DNA of 64,000 bases from the NCBI RefSeq assembly GCF_008039575.1, contig NZ_VDUY01000008.1:62001-126000 (forward strand), read 5' to 3'. The translations under genes and the position numbers were made by a program. Shown one piece after another: positions 35,871 to 54,520 of the stretch (position 1 is its first letter; every line of letters begins with the position of its first letter). Under the pieces are notes generated by a model that ran no database searches, was not told where the DNA came from, and worked only from the letters and a program-made list of their open reading frames with translations. This DNA comes from Zeimonas arvi (lineage in GTDB: Bacteria; Pseudomonadota; Gammaproteobacteria; Burkholderiales; Burkholderiaceae_E).

Positions 35871-37505
<1,635 letters not shown>

Positions 37506-37997
37506 GGGAGGACCTTCAGCGATGGCTACGCCCCAGTGTAGCCGCCGCGTTGCGAGGACGTCGCGGGCTTCGTTCACTGTCGGGGAGCTTCAGGCCGGCT
37601 GTCCGTGTCTCGCTGTGCCGCACTCCTCGCAGCATGATCGAGTCCGGGTCGGGGGTAACAATTTCGCGGGTTTCGGGGGTAAATTGCGTTGCAGCCCGCG
37701 CCGGTGCGCGCCTCGCTCGTGTGGATGTAGGCGCCGTGCGCCTGCCAGCCGCACGCGGGATCCGAATCGGTTCGATCGCACGTGATCGCCAGCACGCGCA
37801 ACCGCTACAATTAGTGCACATACGGCCTAACACGACCACATATAGTGGCGTAGGTCCGTTGCCAGTGACTCACTGGCCCCGTGGATTTATCCGCGACTTG
37901 CCGACGGGAACCAACAGGCTAAAAGCGTCGGCGCGATCTTCCCCGCTCGCGCGCAGACGTGCGGCTTACCCACGTCTGCGGGGGGAGGTTCCATGTC
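37506..37997. other. Divergent control region of the element
   Basis: Lies between the integrase (leftward) and AlpA-like gene (rightward). It holds a 10-bp direct repeat TCGGGGGTAA at 37649 and 37673 (24 bp apart), a TACAAT -10-like box at 37806-37811, and a perfect hairpin next to the ribosome site of the AlpA-like gene. I find no protein I can support here. Confidence 0.6.
37952..37988 (+). promoter_or_regulatory. Hairpin abutting the ribosome-binding site of the AlpA-like gene
   Basis: CGCAGACGTG (37952-37961) pairs with CACGTCTGCG (37971-37980) around a nine-base loop. The Shine-Dalgarno sequence GGGGAGG follows immediately and lies nine bases before the ATG at 37998. It may act as an operator in DNA or control ribosome access in RNA. 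Confidence 0.6.
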
Positions 37998-38267
37998 ATG
38001 TCCGTTCAGAGTTCTGGCGTTCACGCGCCGCGTAGCACCACCCGCAGTACCTATCGCGGCCGCCCGCTCACCGAGCGCGCGCTTCGCATCAACGACCTGC
38101 CCGCCTGCGCTCGCATCGGCAGCGCGGACATGTCGGCACTGCTCAACCTTGGCAGATCGGCGCTCTACAAATGGGTCCGCGAAGGACGCGCGCCTGCGCC
38201 GATAGCGCCGGGAGTGTGGCGCGCAGGTGACGTGCGCGATTTCCTCGCGCAGCAGGGGCAGCGATGA
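37998..38267 (+). CDS. AlpA/excisionase-like HTH DNA-binding protein
   Basis: An 89-residue protein with a MerR/AlpA-type winged HTH in its second half: A-D-M-S-A-L-L-N-L-G-R-S-A-L-Y-K-W-V followed by G-V-W-R-A-G-D-V-R-D-F-L. Such proteins act as excisionases or as activators of satellite and prophage genes (P4 AlpA is the model). An upstream in-frame ATG exists, but the ATG at 37998 has the Shine-Dalgarno sequence. It overlaps the primase start (ATGA), so both are made from one transcript. Confidence 0.85.
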   Translation: MSVQSSGVHAPRSTTRSTYRGRPLTERALRINDLPACARIGSADMSALLNLGRSALYKWVREGRAPAPIAPGVWRAGDVRDFLAQQGQR

Positions 38268-40777
38268 CGCCGAGGCCATCACCGTCGATCGGCGCTCTGC
38301 TCGCGAGGCAGCGCGCGCAGGCCCCGGCGCTGGCCGTCGTGCCCACGGTCGTCGACCCAGACGATCAGGCGCCGACCATCGCCAACATCCAGCCGCTACT
38401 CGACCGCGTTCGTCGAGGCGACCACTGGCGCAAACCCAACGGCAGCGGCCCGGTCCACACGAAGCTCCCGCTCGCGGACCTGACGATAGAGCGCGAGTGG
38501 GCCGCCGGCAACGGCGTCGGCGCCTGCCCGATCGAGCGGGGCGGCAGAACGACGCGCATCGCGGTGCTCGACCTTGATTCCCACAAAGGCGAGGCCACGT
38601 GGCCGGAGATGTGGGCCTGCGCCAAGCAGCTGATCGAGGTGGCCGAGGCGGTCTTCGACCTGAAGCTGATCCCCTTCCGCTCCACCGGCGGCCGAGGCAT
38701 CCACCTCTACGCGCTGTGGGCCGAGCCGCAGGACGCGCGCAGCGTACGCGTGGCGATGCGTGAGCTGCTCGCCAGCTGCCGGCTCAAGGACGGCGCAGGC
38801 AAGGGCGGGGTGAAGGGCGGCTTCGTCGAGGTCTTCCCGAAGCAAGACTCGGTGCCAACCGACGGGTGGGGCTCGATGTTCGTGCTGCCGGGCAGCGGCA
38901 AGTCCGCTGCGCTCGGCTCGGTGACAGGCGAGGTGATCGCGTGGGCATCGGTCGACTGGCGCATGTCGGGCGACGTGGAGGTGCTGCCGCCCGATGAGCA
39001 GCGCGACCCCGTCGAGCCGATCGAGGTGACCGACGCGTCGGTCGCGAGCATCCAGTCTGCGCTGGCGGCCATCGACCCGAATACGCTCGACTACGACGGT
39101 TGGCTGCGCATGCTGATGGCAGTCAGCCATGGCACCGGTGGCAGCGACGCCGGGCTGGCGATCTTCCACGAGTGGTCGAGCCGCGCCGGTGTCTACGACG
39201 AGGCGGAGACGGACAAGCAGTGGGCGTGGTGCGACCCCGCTCGCCCGGGCGGGGTGACGGTCGACACGCTCTTCGCGGTGGCCAAGAAGGCCGGCTGGCG
39301 CGACCCGCAGCTGCAGCAGCTGTTCGCCGCGAACGACGAGGCGCGGGCCGACGCGTTCCTCGCCGCGGTGCCGGGCTGGGAAGTGGCCGGGCTCGACGAG
39401 GCCGGCATCGCCCGCGCTGCCGAGCTGCCGGCGCCGGTGCGCGCGACCGTCGCCGATCGGGTCGGGGCGGCCGATGCTCGGGCGATCGCGCAGGCTGCCG
39501 AGGCGATCGAGGCGGTGCGGGCTAGCAAGACTGGCGCGCAGAGGAAGTTGCTGTCTTCGGTGGGTCTCACGGTCGAACTGCCGAGCGCGATCGCCTACAA
39601 CGACAAGCGTCGCGCGCTCGCCACCGCGCCCAACGTGGCGCTCGCTTGCCAGTCGCCGGACATGATCGGCTGTGTGATCGGCTTCGACTCCTTCCGCGAC
39701 GAGCTGATGTTGTCGCACGACGGGGGCCAGAACTGGGCGTCGTTCCGCGACGAGCACTACGCGCAGATCGAGGTGCGACTCGTGAACGAGCACCGGTTCA
39801 TGCCGATCCCGATGGAGTTGCTGCGCCGGCAGGTCTACGCGGCAGGGCAGCACAACTCCTTCGACTCCGCACAGAAATGGTTGGAGTCGCTCCCCCCTTG
39901 GGACGGAGTGCCCCGGGTCGACCGATTCTGTGCGACCTACCTTGGGGCCGAAGACCGCGAATACACGGGTGCGGTGAGCGCGTTCCTGTGGACTGCGGCG
40001 GCCGGGCGAGTGATGGTGCCCGGCATCAAGGTCGACATGGTGCCCGTTCTGGTCGGCGCGCAGGGCGCGCGGAAGTCGTCGTCTATCGCCGCGATCTCGC
40101 CCTCGCCGGACTTCTTCAACGAGATCGCCTTCGATACCAAAGACGCGGATCTGTCTCGCAAGCTCAAGGGTTTGCTCGTCGGCGAGCTGGCCGAGCTGCG
40201 CGGGCTGGGCACCAAGGAGATCGAGGCGATCAAGAACTTCATCACCCAGCGGCACGAGACATGGACCCCGAAGTTCAAGGAGATCCCGGTGAGGTTCGCG
40301 CGACGGTGCGTGTTCATCGGATCGACCAACGAAGAGCAGTTCCTTGCCGACAAGACCGGTGAGCGGCGGTGGCTGCCGGTCACGGTCGGTGAATGCCGGC
40401 CAGACCTCGTCGAGCGGGATCGACTGCAGCTCTGGGCAGAGGGGTTGGCTCGGTTCCGCGCGAACGGGATCGAGTGGCAACGGGCGGAGCAACTGGCCGC
40501 GGGTGAGCACGAGGCCTACAAGGCCCCGGACCTGTGGGAAGACCGGATCGTCAGTTTCCTCGACACCGCGGGTCTCGATGGGGTGCGACCGGGGGACAGG
40601 CCGTTCACGATGACCCAGATCCTCGTCAGCGCACTGGGCATCGACGTCGCAGACGCGACGAAGGTGAAACGCGCCGACGAGAACCGGGTCGGAAAAATCC
40701 TTCGCGGCCTCGGTTACGAGTCACTGCGTCGGCGGGTCGACGGTGTCCGCGGGCGTTTCTGGGAGAGAAAACGGTGA
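38264..40777 (+). CDS. Satellite-type primase-helicase (AEP-like, PriCT-2-like and VapE regions)
   Basis: Replication protein of 837 residues. The N-terminal third resembles archaeo-eukaryotic primases: L-D-L-D-S-H-K near 102 (metal Asp pair), G-G-R-G-I-H-L-Y near 142 and F-P-K-Q-D-S near 191. A PriCT-2-like helical region follows (about 258-345, D-Y-D-G-W-L-R-M-L-M-A). The C-terminal half is a VapE superfamily ATPase: L-P-P-W-D-G-V-P-R, a Walker A-like G-A-Q-G-A-R-K-S-S near 600, acidic G-E-L-A-E-L near 640 and R-R-W-L-P-V-T-V. It probably primes and unwinds the element's DNA during induced replication. Confidence 0.88.
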   Translation: MTPRPSPSIGALLARQRAQAPALAVVPTVVDPDDQAPTIANIQPLLDRVRRGDHWRKPNGSGPVHTKLPLADLTIEREWAAGNGVGACPIERGGRTTRIAVLDLDSHKGEATWPEMWACAKQLIEVAEAVFDLKLIPFRSTGGRGIHLYALWAEPQDARSVRVAMRELLASCRLKDGAGKGGVKGGFVEVFPKQDSVPTDGWGSMFVLPGSGKSAALGSVTGEVIAWASVDWRMSGDVEVLPPDEQRDPVEPIEVTDASVASIQSALAAIDPNTLDYDGWLRMLMAVSHGTGGSDAGLAIFHEWSSRAGVYDEAETDKQWAWCDPARPGGVTVDTLFAVAKKAGWRDPQLQQLFAANDEARADAFLAAVPGWEVAGLDEAGIARAAELPAPVRATVADRVGAADARAIAQAAEAIEAVRASKTGAQRKLLSSVGLTVELPSAIAYNDKRRALATAPNVALACQSPDMIGCVIGFDSFRDELMLSHDGGQNWASFRDEHYAQIEVRLVNEHRFMPIPMELLRRQVYAAGQHNSFDSAQKWLESLPPWDGVPRVDRFCATYLGAEDREYTGAVSAFLWTAAAGRVMVPGIKVDMVPVLVGAQGARKSSSIAAISPSPDFFNEIAFDTKDADLSRKLKGLLVGELAELRGLGTKEIEAIKNFITQRHETWTPKFKEIPVRFARRCVFIGSTNEEQFLADKTGERRWLPVTVGECRPDLVERDRLQLWAEGLARFRANGIEWQRAEQLAAGEHEAYKAPDLWEDRIVSFLDTAGLDGVRPGDRPFTMTQILVSALGIDVADATKVKRADENRVGKILRGLGYESLRRRVDGVRGRFWERKR

Positions 40778-40959: not shown

Positions 40960-41232
40960 ATGAAATTCGTAAGCACAACCCAGACCGGTGAGCCGGTCGA
41001 ATCCAACTCGGGCACCGTGGCTCACCGCTACGTGGCCGCCGATGGCCAGCCCGTCGTCGTGAAGCGCGACGAGCGCGGGCGCCTTCTGCCGGGTTCTCGG
41101 CTGGTGTTGCTCCGGGCACCGGGCACCGGCCGGGAGCCGAAGAACGCGGACTCGGTGCGCAGGCGGGCGCTTGGCCTGCCGTCGCGCTGGGCCGCGCACA
41201 ACGCCAAGCGGCGCAAGGGAGGGGCCGAATGA
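40960..41232 (+). CDS. Small hypothetical protein of the element
   Basis: Ninety residues, basic at the C-terminus (R-R-R-A-L-G-L-P-S-R-W-A-A-H-N-A-K-R-R-K). I do not recognise a family. Strong ribosome site AAGGAGG nine bases upstream of the ATG marks it as the first gene of the rightward small-gene operon. Its stop overlaps the next start (ATGA). Confidence 0.75.
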   Translation: MKFVSTTQTGEPVESNSGTVAHRYVAADGQPVVVKRDERGRLLPGSRLVLLRAPGTGREPKNADSVRRRALGLPSRWAAHNAKRRKGGAE

Positions 41233-41726
41233 ACGCGCGCCAGCTTCACTACCTCGAAGTGCTCGCGAAGACCGGTTCGCAGGTGCAGGCCCGCAAGGCT
41301 GCGGGCGTCACCACGAAGACCGTGGGCAACTGGCGCGGCGACGAGGAGTTCCTCGGCGCGGTCGATGAGGCGATCGAAGCGGCCAACGACGCGATCCGCG
41401 CCAAGGTGCGCGAGATGGCGCTGGCCGGCGAGACCTCGATGTTGACCCTGTCGATGAAGGTCATCGAGCCCGCGCTGCGCCCCGCCGGCACCAACGTGGC
41501 GCTGCAGGTCAACACCACGCAGTCGGCCGTGCCCGATGTCGACGCTGTGCGGCTCGCAGACCAGCTGAACAACCTTCACGCGCAGCTCGCCAATCGCGTG
41601 CAGGGGCAGCTGCCGGTGCCGGTCGTCGATCCCGGCCCGCTCATCGAGGTGCCTGCGGCCGCTCAGGAGGCCGCAGGCGCGCCGATCGACTCGTCGGAAG
41701 GGGAAGGGCATGCAGACATCTGCTAA
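41229..41726 (+). CDS. Small-terminase-like helix-turn-helix protein
   Basis: The N-terminal 60 residues form an HTH of the type found in phage small terminase subunits: L-H-Y-L-E-V-L-A-K-T-G-S-Q-V-Q-A-R-K-A-A-G-V then T-T-K-T-V-G-N-W-R. A helical region follows and a Pro/Ala-rich tail. If it binds packaging sites, the element could redirect a helper phage's terminase, as known satellites do; that is inference from the family. 165 residues, coupled to the gene before it and overlapping the next by 17 bases. Confidence 0.65.
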   Translation: MNARQLHYLEVLAKTGSQVQARKAAGVTTKTVGNWRGDEEFLGAVDEAIEAANDAIRAKVREMALAGETSMLTLSMKVIEPALRPAGTNVALQVNTTQSAVPDVDAVRLADQLNNLHAQLANRVQGQLPVPVVDPGPLIEVPAAAQEAAGAPIDSSEGEGHADIC

Positions 41727-43458: not shown

Positions 43459-43727
43459 TTGGCCACTGCCTCGATCCGCAGGCGGATCACGAGCCCGACT
43501 TCGCCACGGCGACGTCGATCAGCGAGCTGGCCGACATGGTCGCCATGTCGCCCAAGAGGACCGCCGTCGACTGGGCCGAGGGCGTGCGCGTCGCGAACCT
43601 CGCGAAGGCCGGCGAGCAGCTGCCGGTTGAGAGGCATGCGTTCCTGTACGGGATCGCCGCGATGAAGAACCGCAGCACCCAACGCGAACTCAATGAAGCC
43701 GTTCTGCGGCTGGAGGACCAAGCATGA
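43455..43727 (+). CDS. Small hypothetical protein of the element
   Basis: Ninety residues starting at GTG in a GTGA overlap. Contains L-A-D-M-V-A-M-S-P-K-R-T-A-V-D-W-A and ends in a helical E-L-N-E-A-V-L-R-L-E-D-Q-A. Family not recognised. Its stop overlaps the start of the next gene. Confidence 0.72.
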   Translation: MIGHCLDPQADHEPDFATATSISELADMVAMSPKRTAVDWAEGVRVANLAKAGEQLPVERHAFLYGIAAMKNRSTQRELNEAVLRLEDQA

Positions 43728-44002
43728 CCAAGACCACCACCATCACGACCGACGAGGTGATCGCCGCGCTCGTGAACTCGATCGCCACCGAGGTCGATCG
43801 GATCGACGCCGCCACCAAGCCGGCGCACAGCAAGCACCTGTCTCGCGCGCGCTACAGGCCGACAGCCTCGCTGCTGTCGCTCAAGGCTTTCATCGAGAAG
43901 GCCATCGGCTTCGCCTCGGCCGCCGAGCTTCGGGCAGCGGCTGCCGACCTGCGGTCGTTCGACGACGAGACCGCGGCGATCATCGAGAAGGCGCAGCGAT
44001 GA
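43724..44002 (+). CDS. Small hypothetical protein of the element
   Basis: 92 residues: Thr-rich start (M-T-K-T-T-T-I-T-T-D-E-V-I-A-A-L), a basic middle (H-S-K-H-L-S-R-A-R-Y-R-P) and a helical end. Not recognised. ATGA overlaps at both ends. Confidence 0.72.
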   Translation: MTKTTTITTDEVIAALVNSIATEVDRIDAATKPAHSKHLSRARYRPTASLLSLKAFIEKAIGFASAAELRAAAADLRSFDDETAAIIEKAQR

Positions 44003-44502
44003 CCCCAATGCAGGAGCGCAAGCTGTATGCCGAGTTGCGCGGTGCCCGCGAGCAGCGCGACGAGGTCCAAGGTCTGCTGCGCATGTCGGAGGCCGAGTTG
44101 GACGACACCCGCGGCGCAGTGGCCCGTCTCGAAGCCGAGGTCGCCCGCCTCGAAGCCGAGGTCGAGCAGCTGCAACAGGAGGCGGCGGTGAAGGACGAGC
44201 AGATCGACCAGCTCCACGAGACCATGTACGACAGGTGGGACGCTGCAGGCGAGCGCCTCCACGTGCTCGTCCACTACTGCGGGCAAATCGACAGGTTGTT
44301 CAACCTGCTGCTCCTCGCGGGCCAGTACGTGCGCGCCGGTCTCTTGACCCGCGACCCAGCCAATGACCACGAGCGGGCAATGGCGGGCGCGTTCGATCTC
44401 ACCTTGAGCCTCGCGGACGAGATCGCCGCGAAACACGACGAGCAGGAGATCGAGGCCCGGATCGGGCGCGGCGAGCTGGTCGTCGGCACCGAGGAGACCT
44501 GA
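43999..44502 (+). CDS. Coiled-coil protein of the element
   Basis: 167 residues with a clear coiled coil at about 10-75, including a duplicated R-L-E-A-E-V-A motif (from 21-base DNA repeats near 44125-44165). The C-terminal half is a mixed helical domain (V-L-V-H-Y-C-G-Q-I-D-R-L-F-N-L-L-L-L-A-G). No family recognised. Coupled to the gene upstream. Confidence 0.72.
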   Translation: MTPMQERKLYAELRGAREQRDEVQGLLRMSEAELDDTRGAVARLEAEVARLEAEVEQLQQEAAVKDEQIDQLHETMYDRWDAAGERLHVLVHYCGQIDRLFNLLLLAGQYVRAGLLTRDPANDHERAMAGAFDLTLSLADEIAAKHDEQEIEARIGRGELVVGTEET

Positions 44503-47135: not shown

Positions 47136-47705
47136 ATGAAGGACAAGTTTGATCTTCGATATTTCACCGACGTGCTTATCGCGGACGTCGTAGCGAGTCA
47201 AAAGCGACTTGACGCCGAGGACTCCCCGCAGAATAGGCGAGACATAGTCCGAACGGCGATGTCAAGCGTCGAGGGCCTGATCTGGTTTCTAAAGGTCAGA
47301 GTCTTCGGGTTGCCAAGGGTCGAGTGGAAACTGACAGCGCACGAGTACGATGCATTGTTCGAGCGTAGCTACCACGTGGCTGCGAACGGCGTCGTCCGCC
47401 GGACAACGAGGCACTTGCCTACGGCGACAACTCTAAAGCTTGTCGCGCGAATCATACGCAGGCAGTTCCCTGAATTCACTGAGGACTTCTCGGGGGAAGG
47501 TTGGTGCCGCGTGCTTGCTGCCATAGAAGTGCGCCACAGGTTGACACATCCCAAGTCGGTCGAGGACCTTCAAGTGAGTGACCGCGACGTCCAATGCGCC
47601 GAGTACGCATTCCGCTGGACGCTCGCATTTCTACTTAGAGCGGCAGCGTATGGGGCTATGGGGGAGTTGCCTGAGGACCCCGGAGGGACTGGGGATTCGG
47701 GCTGA
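47136..47705 (+). CDS. HEPN-like domain protein (candidate RNase / defence cargo)
   Basis: 189 residues, all-helical pattern, with E-V-R-H-R-L-T-H-P-K near residue 132. This R-x4-H motif followed by a helix is the active-site signature of HEPN-type ribonucleases in toxin and defence systems. No obvious antitoxin partner is adjacent. Codon use is less GC-biased than the satellite core, suggesting separate acquisition. Function is inference; the motif is the only direct evidence. Confidence 0.55.
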   Translation: MKDKFDLRYFTDVLIADVVASQKRLDAEDSPQNRRDIVRTAMSSVEGLIWFLKVRVFGLPRVEWKLTAHEYDALFERSYHVAANGVVRRTTRHLPTATTLKLVARIIRRQFPEFTEDFSGEGWCRVLAAIEVRHRLTHPKSVEDLQVSDRDVQCAEYAFRWTLAFLLRAAAYGAMGELPEDPGGTGDSG

Positions 47706-47779: not shown

Positions 47780-48208
47780 CTACCTCACTATGTCATGGCT
47801 TCGCGGCGGTCGCTTGAAGTACAGCAACACAAACGTACGGCGGCCAAACCACGCCAGGAACGCGATGGCAGCGGTTACCGAGAGCGCGGCGGTCTCCTCG
47901 CCCGCGATCTGATATGCCAGCCATGCGATCGAAGAAATGGCCAAGGCCAGCACTATTCCCAGAAAAGTGCCAGTTTTTACACCGGATCGGAGGCCTCGCA
48001 AGAAGTGATCGTTGTCGCGATGCTTCGTAGCGGTCTCCAGTCGAATCTTCTCTCGTTGATGGGCGTCTTCGGCCCTCGCCATCGCGCGCGCGACGCGCTG
48101 TTCGCATGGCATGCAAACGGTCTTCTGTGATCCCAGAGTGCCCTCGCCAAACTCTGAGGGTGGCCTCCGGAAGAGACACAGTTCGCATACATTCAAGAAC
48201 GTTTTCAT
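47780..48208 (-). CDS. Small membrane protein with N-terminal Cys pairs
   Basis: 142 residues. Two C-x-x-C pairs (C8/C11 and C32/C35) near the N-terminus could bind zinc; a charged helix (about 40-70) follows, then two hydrophobic segments (G-T-F-L-G-I-V-L-A-L-A-I-S-S-I-A near 77 and A-L-S-V-T-A-A-I-A-F-L-A-W near 107). The ATG at 48208 is preferred over an in-frame TTG at 48226. It lies 27 bases after a 36-residue gene and the GIY-YIG gene, so all three may be one operon. Confidence 0.65.
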   Translation of the reverse strand: MKTFLNVCELCLFRRPPSEFGEGTLGSQKTVCMPCEQRVARAMARAEDAHQREKIRLETATKHRDNDHFLRGLRSGVKTGTFLGIVLALAISSIAWLAYQIAGEETAALSVTAAIAFLAWFGRRTFVLLYFKRPPRSHDIVR

Positions 48209-48235
48209 GTTCCGTGGCGTCGTCAATGACGAGGG

Positions 48236-48346
48236 CTAAAGTTGTCGAGTCGGGGCCGTGAAGCTGCCCAGATCCTTCGAGTTCAATGTGACGAACCCCT
48301 CGCCGGTCCGCTTGTTGATGATGCAAGAGCCCGTTGTCGTGCTCAC
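48236..48346 (-). CDS. 36-residue protein coupled to the GIY-YIG gene
   Basis: Begins at a GTG that shares four bases with the stop of the GIY-YIG gene (GTGA) and reads V-S-T-T-T-G-S-C-I-I-N-K-R-T-G-E-G-F-V, ending at a TAG. The compact sequence with hydrophobic and Gly positions looks like a real beta-rich peptide, and the overlap supports translation. Not recognised. Confidence 0.5.
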   Translation of the reverse strand: MSTTTGSCIINKRTGEGFVTLNSKDLGSFTAPTRQL

Positions 48347-49893
48347 TTCTTCGTTCTGGATGGCTTGGAGAGTGCGTCCTCTAGCGACATGCCCGTCCGC
48401 ATTCGCTGGGCCACGGCCGACGGGGTGATGCCAAAGTACCTTGCCGCCTCCCGAATCGACGGGAAGGGCTGACCTTTCACGGTCACGCGCTTTCGGTTGT
48501 TCCCGCGCGCAGGTGGGCGCGGCTCGACCCCTAACGCTTGTTCCGTAGTCCATCCCAACTTGAGGCGCTTGAGGAACTGCTGGGGCGCGATCCCGTGCGC
48601 GTTTGCTGCATCGGAGTGGCTGGCGAAGACGCGCCCGGAAACCGTTACTTCGACGCCGTTCTTCTTCCCGGATGGCGGCGGTGGCGGCGCAAGGTCAAAC
48701 GCTTGCTCGACTGACCACCCAAGCTGCAGCCGCCCCGCGACGGTTCCGTAGTTTTTTCCTAGCGCCCTAGCAGCTGCCTTGACGCTCGAGTATGCCGAGC
48801 CCTGCAGTGCCAGTGCGTGCTCGTTTCCGAACGTCCGGTGTCGGGCGGGCGGTGGATGAATCCCGACAGCCTGCTCGGGCGACCAAGACAAGCGCAATCG
48901 CTTGCGCACTGTTCCGCTCGGTACCCCGAAGCGGCGGGCTGCCTCGGCGATCGTCTTGAACTGCACTCCTCCGATTACGAGACTCACCCCAGCTGGGACG
49001 CGCTTCGGAGGCGGTGCGCGGCCTAATGCTTGGTCCGTAGACCAGCCCAGCGCCAAGCGTGTCGCTAACGCCGATTCAGTAATGTTGTGCGCCTCTGCTG
49101 CGGCACGTATCGTCGGGTAGCTGCACCCGTCGGCCTCGATTGCCCGCCCCTTGTGCGTTCTGCGTGGTGCCGGTGCTACGCCGAGGGCCTGCTCAAGAGT
49201 CCACCCCTGAACTCGCATCCGCTGGTGGACAAGGTACTCCTCGACGCCGTGGTGGCGGGAGGCCGCATTGAGGCTGATGAAAGTCTTGCCGTTTACCGTG
49301 ACCGCCTTACCGACCATCTCGCCGGCCTTGCCGCCGCGCGTTTGGTTGTAGCCGTTTTCTACGGTCTGGTACTGCGCGACAAGCAGCTTCTCCAACTCGC
49401 CAAGATCCGACCGCGTTGCGGCGCAGGCGATGAACTGGAAGTCGAAGGTATCAGGACCATATCGGCGTATCTCGTCGTGGAGGAGATAACCGTAGTCGCC
49501 GCTCTTGGCAGACTGAAGGTGCTGTCGCCATCGGCTCTTAAGGCTTCGCTCGGTGACCCCTATGTACTGCTGCCCAGTTGCGGTGTTGGTGATCAAGTAG
49601 GCCTTAAACCGCGGCTCAGGCCCGAGGTTCGAGCAGATGCGTTCCAGCAAGGTCGATGCCTTGGCATCAGCGCTTGCGCTCTGGCGTGGCGGTGCGTCTA
49701 CCGGGAGGTGGCTACTCTTGCGAACCGTCGCGCCGGACTTCGCTCGCCGTAGGCGTTCGTAGTTCCGCAAGCATGCCCTGCACCAAGGATGAAGCCCGTT
49801 GCGACCCTGCCTGAACGGCGCGAAGTGATCGAGGGTGGCGGGCCTTGGCTCGCCACACTTGGTACAGGTCTTGTAGGCCGTTGGATCAGCCAT
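48343..49893 (-). CDS. GIY-YIG nuclease-like protein with six tandem HTH-like repeats
   Basis: About 516-523 residues depending on the start (ATG at 49893, or GTG at 49914). Numbered from the GTG: a zinc-finger-like region with C-T-K-C (17-20) and C-R-A-C (45-48); a GIY-YIG domain at about 103-195 (A-Y-L-I-T-N-T-A-T-G-Q-Q-Y-I-G-V, R128, E173, N190); then six units of 53-56 residues, each with a short beta hairpin (V-x-G-x-x-F), an A-A-R-x-x-G-V HTH core and a closing G-W-S-x-E-Q-A-L-G. The units resemble NUMOD-type modules of homing endonucleases. Sequence composition is less GC-rich than the element core. Confidence 0.78.
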   Translation of the reverse strand: MADPTAYKTCTKCGEPRPATLDHFAPFRQGRNGLHPWCRACLRNYERLRRAKSGATVRKSSHLPVDAPPRQSASADAKASTLLERICSNLGPEPRFKAYLITNTATGQQYIGVTERSLKSRWRQHLQSAKSGDYGYLLHDEIRRYGPDTFDFQFIACAATRSDLGELEKLLVAQYQTVENGYNQTRGGKAGEMVGKAVTVNGKTFISLNAASRHHGVEEYLVHQRMRVQGWTLEQALGVAPAPRRTHKGRAIEADGCSYPTIRAAAEAHNITESALATRLALGWSTDQALGRAPPPKRVPAGVSLVIGGVQFKTIAEAARRFGVPSGTVRKRLRLSWSPEQAVGIHPPPARHRTFGNEHALALQGSAYSSVKAAARALGKNYGTVAGRLQLGWSVEQAFDLAPPPPPSGKKNGVEVTVSGRVFASHSDAANAHGIAPQQFLKRLKLGWTTEQALGVEPRPPARGNNRKRVTVKGQPFPSIREAARYFGITPSAVAQRMRTGMSLEDALSKPSRTKK

Positions 49894-50096
49894 CGCGATT
49901 ACGGGTTGGCTCACACGGGTGGCCCCCGCCGCACTTCGTCGCGTTCTTGCGATGGTCTGGGCCCGACATCGTCGAAGGCGCCGTCGAGCGGCTGCCGGTT
50001 CTTGTGATCGGGGGATTCTATCGGCCGAAGGTGTTCCCGACCACCGTCGGAGTAGCCGGGCGGCTCACGCCGCCCGACCCCCACGCCGCGGGAGGC

Positions 50097-50619: not shown

Positions 50620-50742
50620 GGATCTTGGCCGGCACCGATCTCTGGGCGGCCGCGCTGGCGGGCGTCTTGGAGGGATCCGCCCTCTGGGAGGCGGCCTCTC
50701 GCCGCTCGCAGCGGTGCGTAGTTCGAGGGTTTCGTCGATCGG

Positions 50743-50904
50743 CTAAACGAAGCAGTTGATCAGCGTGGGCGACCGCGGCTTCAGCGGCATGAACGGCCCC
50801 GAAGGCACCGTTATAGAAGGGAACAGCTTGAACTCGTCGCGGCCAAGTCGGGGCTCGTGGTTGGTGTAGACGAACTCCTCAACCGCCGCAGTCAGGAGGG
50901 GCAA
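50743..50904 (-). CDS. 53-residue hypothetical protein
   Basis: The frame reads E-E-F-V-Y-T-N-H-E-P-R-L-G-R-D-E-F-K-L-F then P-S-G-P-F-M-P-L-K-P-R-S-P-T-L-I, and ends at TAG 50743. Amino-acid composition looks protein-like rather than a GC artefact. The only start is TTG at 50904, overlapping the end of the next gene upstream by 13 bases. Last gene of a minus-strand set of three or four tiny genes. Confidence 0.5.
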   Translation of the reverse strand: MPLLTAAVEEFVYTNHEPRLGRDEFKLFPSITVPSGPFMPLKPRSPTLINCFV

Positions 50905-52018: not shown

Positions 52019-52032
52019 TGCCCCCGCAACCA
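52019..52032 (+). repeat. attR core (14 bp)
   Basis: TGCCCCCGCAACCA, identical to the tRNA 3' end at 35934-35947, and followed by the native tRNA terminator. Marks the right end of the integrated element. Confidence 0.88.
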
Positions 52033-53807: not shown

Positions 53808-54173
53808 ATGCCTCGCGACACCGGAATCGACACGCTGCTCGACCTCAACGGGACCCTTCTGGACCAGGAGAGCGGCTACTGGGTGAAGATTGAGGCATGG
53901 CGAGTCGACGTCTCGGGAGTGGTTCCGCACGGCATTCGGTATTCGCTGACGCTTCATGAGCCGAGTGGGGCACGCGTCCTGGGCTACGACAATGCGCATG
54001 GAGTCAAACCGGGAGGCAGATTCAGGTATGCAGGGCGAGTTCTGCCTTTCGACCACAGACACAGGCACGCACTCGATGACGGCCTTCCCTATGAATTCGA
54101 GAGCGCGCATCGATTACTGGTCGACTTCTTTGCCGACGTCGATCGCATTCTTCGAGAGGTACGGCAAGAATGA
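53808..54173 (+). CDS. tumE: TumE-type toxin (DUF6516)
   Basis: 121 residues of the DUF6516/TumE toxin family: L-L-D-L-N-G-T-L-L near 11, G-Y-W-V-K-I-E-A-W-R-V near 23, R-Y-S-L-T-L-H-E near 44, and an F-D-H-R-H-R-H near 81 followed by L-L-V-D-F-F-A-D-V-D-R. The biochemical target is not settled for most members. Order is toxin first. Its TGA overlaps the antitoxin ATG. Confidence 0.8.
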   Translation: MPRDTGIDTLLDLNGTLLDQESGYWVKIEAWRVDVSGVVPHGIRYSLTLHEPSGARVLGYDNAHGVKPGGRFRYAGRVLPFDHRHRHALDDGLPYEFESAHRLLVDFFADVDRILREVRQE

Positions 54174-54520
54174 AGCCCATCGTCATAGGCATCATGGCGC
54201 AGGAAAGGATACGGGAACGGGTGTTGGCGATCGCGCGGGGCGACTACAAGCCCCGACCGGGCGAGCCGAAAGTGTGGTTCACTTCGATGCGCTCGCTGGC
54301 CGAAGTGCTGAGCGACGATAACCGTGCGCTGCTGCGGCTCATTGCCGAGGCCAGGCCGGTGTCGATTTCCGCATTGGCCGAGATCTCTGGTCGCAAGCCG
54401 GGGAACCTCTCGCGCACGCTGAAGACGATGAGCCGATATGGGATTGTCGAGCTCGAGCGCGAAAGAAACCAGGTGCGGCCGGTGGCGAAGGCCACGGAAT
54501 TCAGGATCCTGGCTGCGTGA
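54170..54520 (+). CDS. tumA: TumA-type HTH antitoxin / transcriptional regulator
   Basis: 116 residues with a MarR/ArsR-like winged HTH: A-L-A-E-I-S-G-R-K-P-G-N-L-S-R-T-L-K-T-M near 66 then Y-G-I-V-E-L-E-R. This is the standard partner of DUF6516 toxins and should repress the operon through the upstream inverted repeat. ATGA overlap with the toxin; an internal ATG nine codons in is an alternative start. Converges on ehuA with 3 bases between stops. Confidence 0.8.
   Translation: MKPIVIGIMAQERIRERVLAIARGDYKPRPGEPKVWFTSMRSLAEVLSDDNRALLRLIAEARPVSISALAEISGRKPGNLSRTLKTMSRYGIVELERERNQVRPVAKATEFRILAA

Follow-up and report, generated by a model that had tools for sequence, protein, structure and literature searches.

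The window analysed here (64,000 nucleotides of Zeimonas arvi contig NZ_VDUY01000008.1, positions 62,001 to 126,000 of the forward strand) carries on its minus strand an open reading frame (ORF) of 523 amino acids (aa), with a GTG start codon and zero internal stops, that encodes a GIY-YIG nuclease followed by six helix-turn-helix (HTH) units. The gene and the parts of its product are the following:

48343..49914, minus strand: GIY-YIG nuclease with six HTH units, 523 aa (ORF, Pfam, repeat analysis and structural model)
49771..49866, minus strand: N-terminal zinc-ribbon-like CxxC-x24-CxxC, residues 17-48 (sequence; weak PHROG matches)
49339..49608, minus strand: GIY-YIG catalytic domain, residues 103-192 (Y106, Y117, R128, H132, E175, N190)
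49171..49314, minus strand: HTH unit 1, residues 201-248 (repeat analysis and model)
49012..49155, minus strand: HTH unit 2, residues 254-301 (repeat analysis and model)
48853..48996, minus strand: HTH unit 3, residues 307-354 (repeat analysis)
48685..48828, minus strand: HTH unit 4, residues 363-410 (repeat analysis and model)
48520..48663, minus strand: HTH unit 5, residues 418-465 (repeat analysis)
48358..48501, minus strand: HTH unit 6, residues 472-519 (repeat analysis and model)

Judged by fold, profile and conserved residues, the window protein is a member of the GIY-YIG nuclease superfamily. PF01541 (GIY-YIG) matches residues 106-190 at 36.0 bits (Pfam cut-off 22.6), and Y106, Y117, R128, H132, E175 and N190, which we take to be the catalytic residues of the domain, are invariant in 11/11 aligned GIY proteins (window included). 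The Arg and Glu whose absence from homologues the preliminary description had named as counter-evidence are among them and, with the whole set intact, the nuclease looks maintained. TIGR01453 (grpIintron_endo) was matched at 61.1 bits, above its cut-off of 56.05; the relatives from loci L003 (42.3) and L058 (51.9) score below it. The NUMOD1 family (PF07453) gave 44.2 bits over the whole protein (cut-off 22.8), its best stretch covering only positions 15-28 of the 37 in the profile; T5orf172, MUG113 and DUF723 were not found among the 24 Pfam matches (E ≤ 1). The four cysteines N-terminal to the nuclease (C17, C20, C45 and C48) lie in a region with weak matches to endonuclease VII-type families (phrog_1035, E 7.6e-7, residues 12-110; phrog_2633, E 3.9e-4), where the predicted structure is poorly determined (block predicted local distance difference test, pLDDT, <60).

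The tandem repeat is real. The anchors of successive units are spaced by 53, 53, 56, 55 and 54 residues, and the six units share 29-45% pairwise identity (15 pairs), with a mean local alignment score of 76.5 (minimum 62) versus 19.8 for shuffled units (highest shuffle-set mean 22.9, n=300 shuffles). This agrees with the preliminary description of a GIY-YIG core followed by six repeats of 53-56 residues separated by Pro-rich linkers; the G-W-x-x-E-Q-A-L-G-like motif that it placed at the end of each repeat starts with GW in units 1, 2, 4 and 5, and departs from this in units 3 (SWSPEQAVG) and 6 (GMSLEDALS). Each unit comprises about 44 residues plus linker, and a predicted beta-hairpin (VTVxGxxF; sequence and model) precedes every HTH. 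The family PF20987 (I-TevI_DNA-bd) matches the window protein at 42.5 bits (cut-off 27), a profile of 23 units matched the I-TevI structures 1i3j/1t2t (E 5.6e-4, with VPS28 close behind at 0.0016), and VIA-align was used for a second look at the structural resemblance. The units are accordingly modelled as a beta-hairpin plus HTH resembling the I-TevI DNA-binding domain, and in these predictions the non-DNA-binding fold that the preliminary description had held out as counter-evidence was not seen.

Kinship with transcription activator-like effectors (TALEs) was considered for the units and rejected. TALE chains top the search with the 23-unit profile (E down to 1e-13), yet the stretches aligned in the four printed alignments are 11-12 residues long and reach -1 to 4 bits apiece, with i-Evalues in the hundreds or more; the score is inflated by summing over many near-identical TALE repeats. 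The 34-residue TALE repeat also differs from the window units in length and predicted fold.

Among 91 non-redundant of the 148 units found in GIY proteins, conservation is strong at Gly7, Phe/Tyr10, Arg30, Gly34, Trp35 and Ala40, whereas four (24, 25, 28 and 29) of the six least informative columns fall in the second HTH helix. Over 14 orthologue pairs, second-helix columns 23-25, 28 and 29 differ in 62/269 comparisons versus 242/1764 elsewhere (Fisher p 1.5e-4). Selection for new specificity in this helix was not retained as an explanation, since other exposed columns are equally variable and contigs are shared between several of the pairs; the variation is compatible with a recognition face that is free to change on a constant scaffold.

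Relatives were collected from phage and plasmid records, one genome-contig scan, two viral scans and genome searches. The set is similarity-selected and does not amount to a census: matches were present in 298 phage and 38 plasmid records, around which four phage and six plasmid loci were fetched, and the second viral scan is represented by the best 80 of 332 confirmed loci. A viral scan with the window protein alone as query recovered no relative. For the count of arrays, L001, L005 and L031, which duplicate the window or L003, were left out, identical proteins were counted once, and the GIY domain was detected with our own profile built from four sequences. The pooled set contains 41 distinct GIY proteins with at least two units (5/41 run off a contig end). 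Most layouts start with the nuclease: GIY+2 (2 proteins), GIY+3 (12), GIY+4 (14), GIY+5 (4) and GIY+6 (3, window included); the others are 3+GIY+3 (3), 4+GIY+3 (1), 1+GIY+2 (1) and 2+GIY (1), the figures giving the units on either side of the domain. The position of the nuclease, read from these sequences, is before, inside or after the array. The search for homologues with different repeat numbers suggested earlier yielded proteins with 2 to 7 units, and the accompanying idea that such endonucleases carry one to three modules does not hold in this set, where six or seven units occur in 7/41 proteins, five in 4 and four after the nuclease in 14; homing endonucleases in which the DNA-binding domain is repeated have, moreover, been published (PMC10448857, in part).

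Another 17 distinct proteins have units but no GIY domain recognised by the four-sequence profile, with as many as 11 units in a protein of an Alteromonas plasmid; some of them do have a nuclease-like part (VfO3K6 ORF8; L012, with a GIY-like stretch seen by eye) or are cut (L029). The 11-unit protein (760 aa; L006:3065-5347) is encoded by plasmid pAMCP48-600 of Alteromonas mediterranea, and no nuclease domain was detected in it; on plasmid pCY360 of Butyrivibrio proteoclasticus (L007), six nearby ORFs have three to eight units each, with no nuclease detected by the GIY profile. Such arrays of 5-11 units without detected nuclease would suit a DNA-binding regulator whose nuclease is vestigial or conditional, the array acting mainly as a repressor, by analogy with I-TevI and with CapR of the phage-inducible chromosomal island-like element (PLE); for CapR, derived from homing-endonuclease DNA-binding domains, and for I-TevI a repressor role is described (PMC10448857, in part). 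We regard this as improbable for the window protein, which has preserved its catalytic Tyr, Arg, His, Glu and Asn, as have all 11 aligned proteins.

The three 3+GIY+3 proteins come from a same-genus genome (G003), Rubrivivax albus and Thiobacillus sp. The G003 units match in order 6/6 in Thiobacillus and 5/6 in Rubrivivax; a one-to-one orthology between the window units and those of the 3+GIY+3 proteins was sought, and no clear order emerged. In a GIY-YIG tree (domains >90% identical dropped, 15 without units kept), the window, the 3+GIY+3 proteins and L058 fall on separate branches, with weak support (49-80) around the window. A single clade of six-unit arrays is not rejected by the approximately unbiased (AU) test (p 0.087), a constraint placing the window and the 3+GIY+3 proteins together is slightly better than the free tree, and no claim of independent origin is made. 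Arrays of different size also occupy one phage locus beside a RecE-like exonuclease (L058; phrog_434, E 1.2e-23), where flanks ~90-92% identical enclose different nucleases with 6 versus 4 units (L058, L073) and 5 versus 3 units (L049, L075). The GIY identity between the swapped nucleases is 46% and 55%; the proteins differ strongly, and therefore gene replacement rather than simple unit loss is indicated.

A homing-like trace was found in the phage pair BcepSaruman and BcepSauron. The BcepSaruman homologue (1+GIY+2; L014) directly precedes thymidylate synthase, and BcepSauron (L140) has the same region without the homologue: upstream identity is 99.3% until 80 bp before the gene, then there is no match. 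The thymidylate synthase is a mosaic between the two phages (64, 42, 41 and 72% aa identity along the first ~190 residues, the remainder identical), a homing-like pattern of the kind that co-conversion beside a homing event would leave. Elsewhere, the Rubrivivax homologue has a terminase large subunit (phrog_979, E 2.5e-34) in its vicinity, separated from it by small ORFs, and the Thiobacillus homologue lies beside a type II topoisomerase gene, read as gyrB. Part of the Thiobacillus locus has a DNA match in 55/56 genomes, with the nuclease gene matched in its own genome only; in those other genomes for which the two flanks are both listed (e.g. G443, G418), they are on different contigs. The G003 3+GIY+3 gene (L046:6850-9031) occupies a variable spot bounded by a ~86-bp repeat in two copies, 84% identical, with an HNH gene nearby. 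A clean empty site for this gene was discarded: the outer flanks are common to G000, but the 4.4-kb interval there contains other ORFs. Support for homing comes by way of such relatives and not from the window copy, for which neither a related island nor an empty site was found, relatives giving only short interior matches (the primase was also searched).

The gene is sparse, with matches in 3/150 relatives and 4/349 genomes of the order (each count includes the window's own genome), and one match per genome search is interrupted by stops; among the 150 relatives, the match in the family-level relative G050 contains a stop. This rare and patchy occurrence is what a decaying passenger would give, that is, a recently acquired homing gene whose target is gone and which is neither harmful nor useful. 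The window ORF is intact, with its six units and catalytic residues preserved, and we hold such decay to be unlikely.

The surroundings of the window gene are those of an integrated island, with the following features:

35934..35947, plus strand: left attachment repeat, formed by the 3' terminus of tRNA-Met (gene at 35871-35947)
52019..52032, plus strand: right attachment repeat, an exact 14-bp copy of the tRNA 3' end
35904..37577, minus strand: large serine recombinase (PF00239, PF07508)
38264..40777, plus strand: PriCT-2/VapE-like primase-helicase (PF05272, PF08707; phrog_256)
41229..41726, plus strand: terminase-small-subunit-like (TerS-like) protein (phrog_4044, E 5.1e-9; Pfam without match)

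From 51999 outward, 1530 bp align at 95% with a genome of the same genus (G007). None of the 16 island ORFs scanned with PHROGs has a confident match to capsid, portal, tail or large-terminase families; the 'major head protein' match of a coiled-coil ORF (43693-44502) is weak (E 0.0072) and stands among 12 of similar weakness. By its integrase, its own replication gene and its attachment repeats the island appears satellite-like, which bears out the placing of the gene in satellite cargo by the preliminary description. The guanine-plus-cytosine (GC) content is 63.2% in the nuclease gene, 57.7% and 57.9% in its neighbours (47136-47705 and 47780-48226), 66.6% on average in the island and 70.6% in the host stretch 1-35000; the gene and its two neighbours are thus low in GC, as expected of accessory cargo, and lie near the right attachment site. 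The first neighbour (plus strand, 189 aa) is without a match in Pfam, PHROG, NCBIfam and PADLOC (E 0.01), is present in 4/300 genomes of the order (own included) and contains RHRLTHP, presumably a HEPN-like RxxxxH motif. The second (minus strand), just downstream of the nuclease, is small, with a CxxC...CxxC stretch, hydrophobic segments and no family match. Many related genomes share a 37-bp island stretch (50732-50768) at 86-94% identity, which has no tRNA or Rfam match, and a TumE-like toxin with an HVO_A0114-like HTH partner (53808-54520, plus strand) lies ~1.8 kb outside the right attachment repeat.

This setting raises the alternative of a domesticated anti-phage nuclease, satellite cargo that would cut a helper or competing phage at a long specific site, as a mirror image of the phage nuclease Odn, which cuts the PLE satellite origin. 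The recombinase, primase-helicase and TerS-like genes, the lack of any other confident virion match among the scanned ORFs, the low-GC position next to the unmatched 189-aa protein, and the published descriptions of phage-satellite conflict that involves nucleases and DNA-binding domains of homing origin (PMC8263062 and PMC10448857, each in part) all speak for it. However, homologues also occur in prophage-like, lytic-phage and plain chromosomal loci, which is a better fit to a selfish gene, and PADLOC returned for the window protein a generic homing-endonuclease model (E 5.2e-12) with partial matches to mad1 and UzuA. We consider an anti-phage role a minority possibility; no related island that would separate it from selfish homing was found for the window copy.

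We favour, with moderate confidence, a free-standing site-specific endonuclease of the I-TevI class, probably a homing-type selfish gene in the cargo of a phage-satellite-like island. The assignment to sequence-specific nucleases of the I-TevI class is the firmer part, and we think it likely; the window protein departs from the class in the position of its Cys4 stretch, which lies at residues 17-48, N-terminal to the nuclease, and not in the nuclease-HTH linker, where the class has its zinc finger (PMC10448857, in part). For homing as its current role the balance tips only slightly in favour. In the mechanism proposed, the array would dock on DNA, the flexible Pro-rich linkers giving reach, and the second helix of each HTH would enter the major groove, so that six units lay the protein along one long site, which we infer to be tens of bp and longer than that of I-TevI, with a specificity that would be the sum of six weak contacts. 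The GIY-YIG domain on the N-terminal side would cut at one end of the array, by analogy to I-TevI; copies of the locus, or of a helper-phage gene, without the nuclease gene would be cut, and repair would then copy the gene in. More speculatively, the unit may be a natural swappable DNA-reading module, with a constant I-TevI-type scaffold and a variable second helix, used in arrays of 2-11 with a GIY-YIG or T5orf172-type nuclease before, inside or after them; long sites would be read additively and new targets reached by gain, loss and shuffling of units, in parallel to TALEs and unrelated to them. We hold this wider proposal to be doubtful. If the units bind independently, the family would allow extended modular recognition by a GIY-YIG nuclease to be tested on a natural example, for which the nucleases of different unit number at the RecE-adjacent phage locus are ready comparisons; if phage DNA is cut, a satellite-borne long-site nuclease would be added to phage-satellite conflict.

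Among known systems, I-TevI, the phage T4 td intron endonuclease, recognises a site of ~37 bp with a single HTH; one HTH match was found in the I-TevI fragment versus six in the window protein, and the window gene shows no sign of an intron setting. The homing endonuclease family PHROG_314 covers the GIY-YIG domain and the start of the array (residues 106-294 only, E 4e-23), and PHROG_1065 (unknown function; 192-position profile) matches the array in four stretches (E 2.3e-44). GIY-YIG homing endonucleases with varied NUMOD patterns C-terminal to the nuclease have been described (PMC1564403, in part); in the openly licensed literature we found no report of HTH or NUMOD arrays of the present kind with GIY-YIG. 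The 3+GIY+3 proteins have six like units, but with the nuclease in mid-array. ORF8 of the Vibrio filamentous phage VfO3K6/f237 (Vpf497; L002:5528-7021) has about seven like units, two of them partial, with 27.5% identity to the window array; its T5orf172-like stretch (19.7 bits, just below the cut-off of 20) is C-terminal, unlike the nuclease of the window protein. From its sequence it looks like a homing-endonuclease-type protein. ORF8 serves as a polymerase chain reaction (PCR) marker of pandemic Vibrio parahaemolyticus (PMC2631806, in part), and no report linking it to GIY-YIG was found in the openly licensed literature; with it, plasmid and phage proteins annotated as hypothetical are now tied to the I-TevI DNA-binding module. 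For the T5orf172 homing endonucleases, PMC10448857 (in part) describes several zinc-finger domains arranged as 'beads on a string', repeats that recombine with one another, shuffling of domains and a link to phage-satellite conflict (CapR, Odn). Like these, with their repeated CapR/DUF723-type fingers, the window protein combines a GIY-YIG-superfamily nuclease with repeated DNA-binding beads; its nuclease, however, is of the PF01541 subfamily and its bead is an I-TevI-type HTH, not a zinc finger. Homing endonucleases with repeated beads being already known from that source, the window protein is best described as an unusual version of a known type of selfish gene cutter, with the I-TevI-type HTH bead in six copies.
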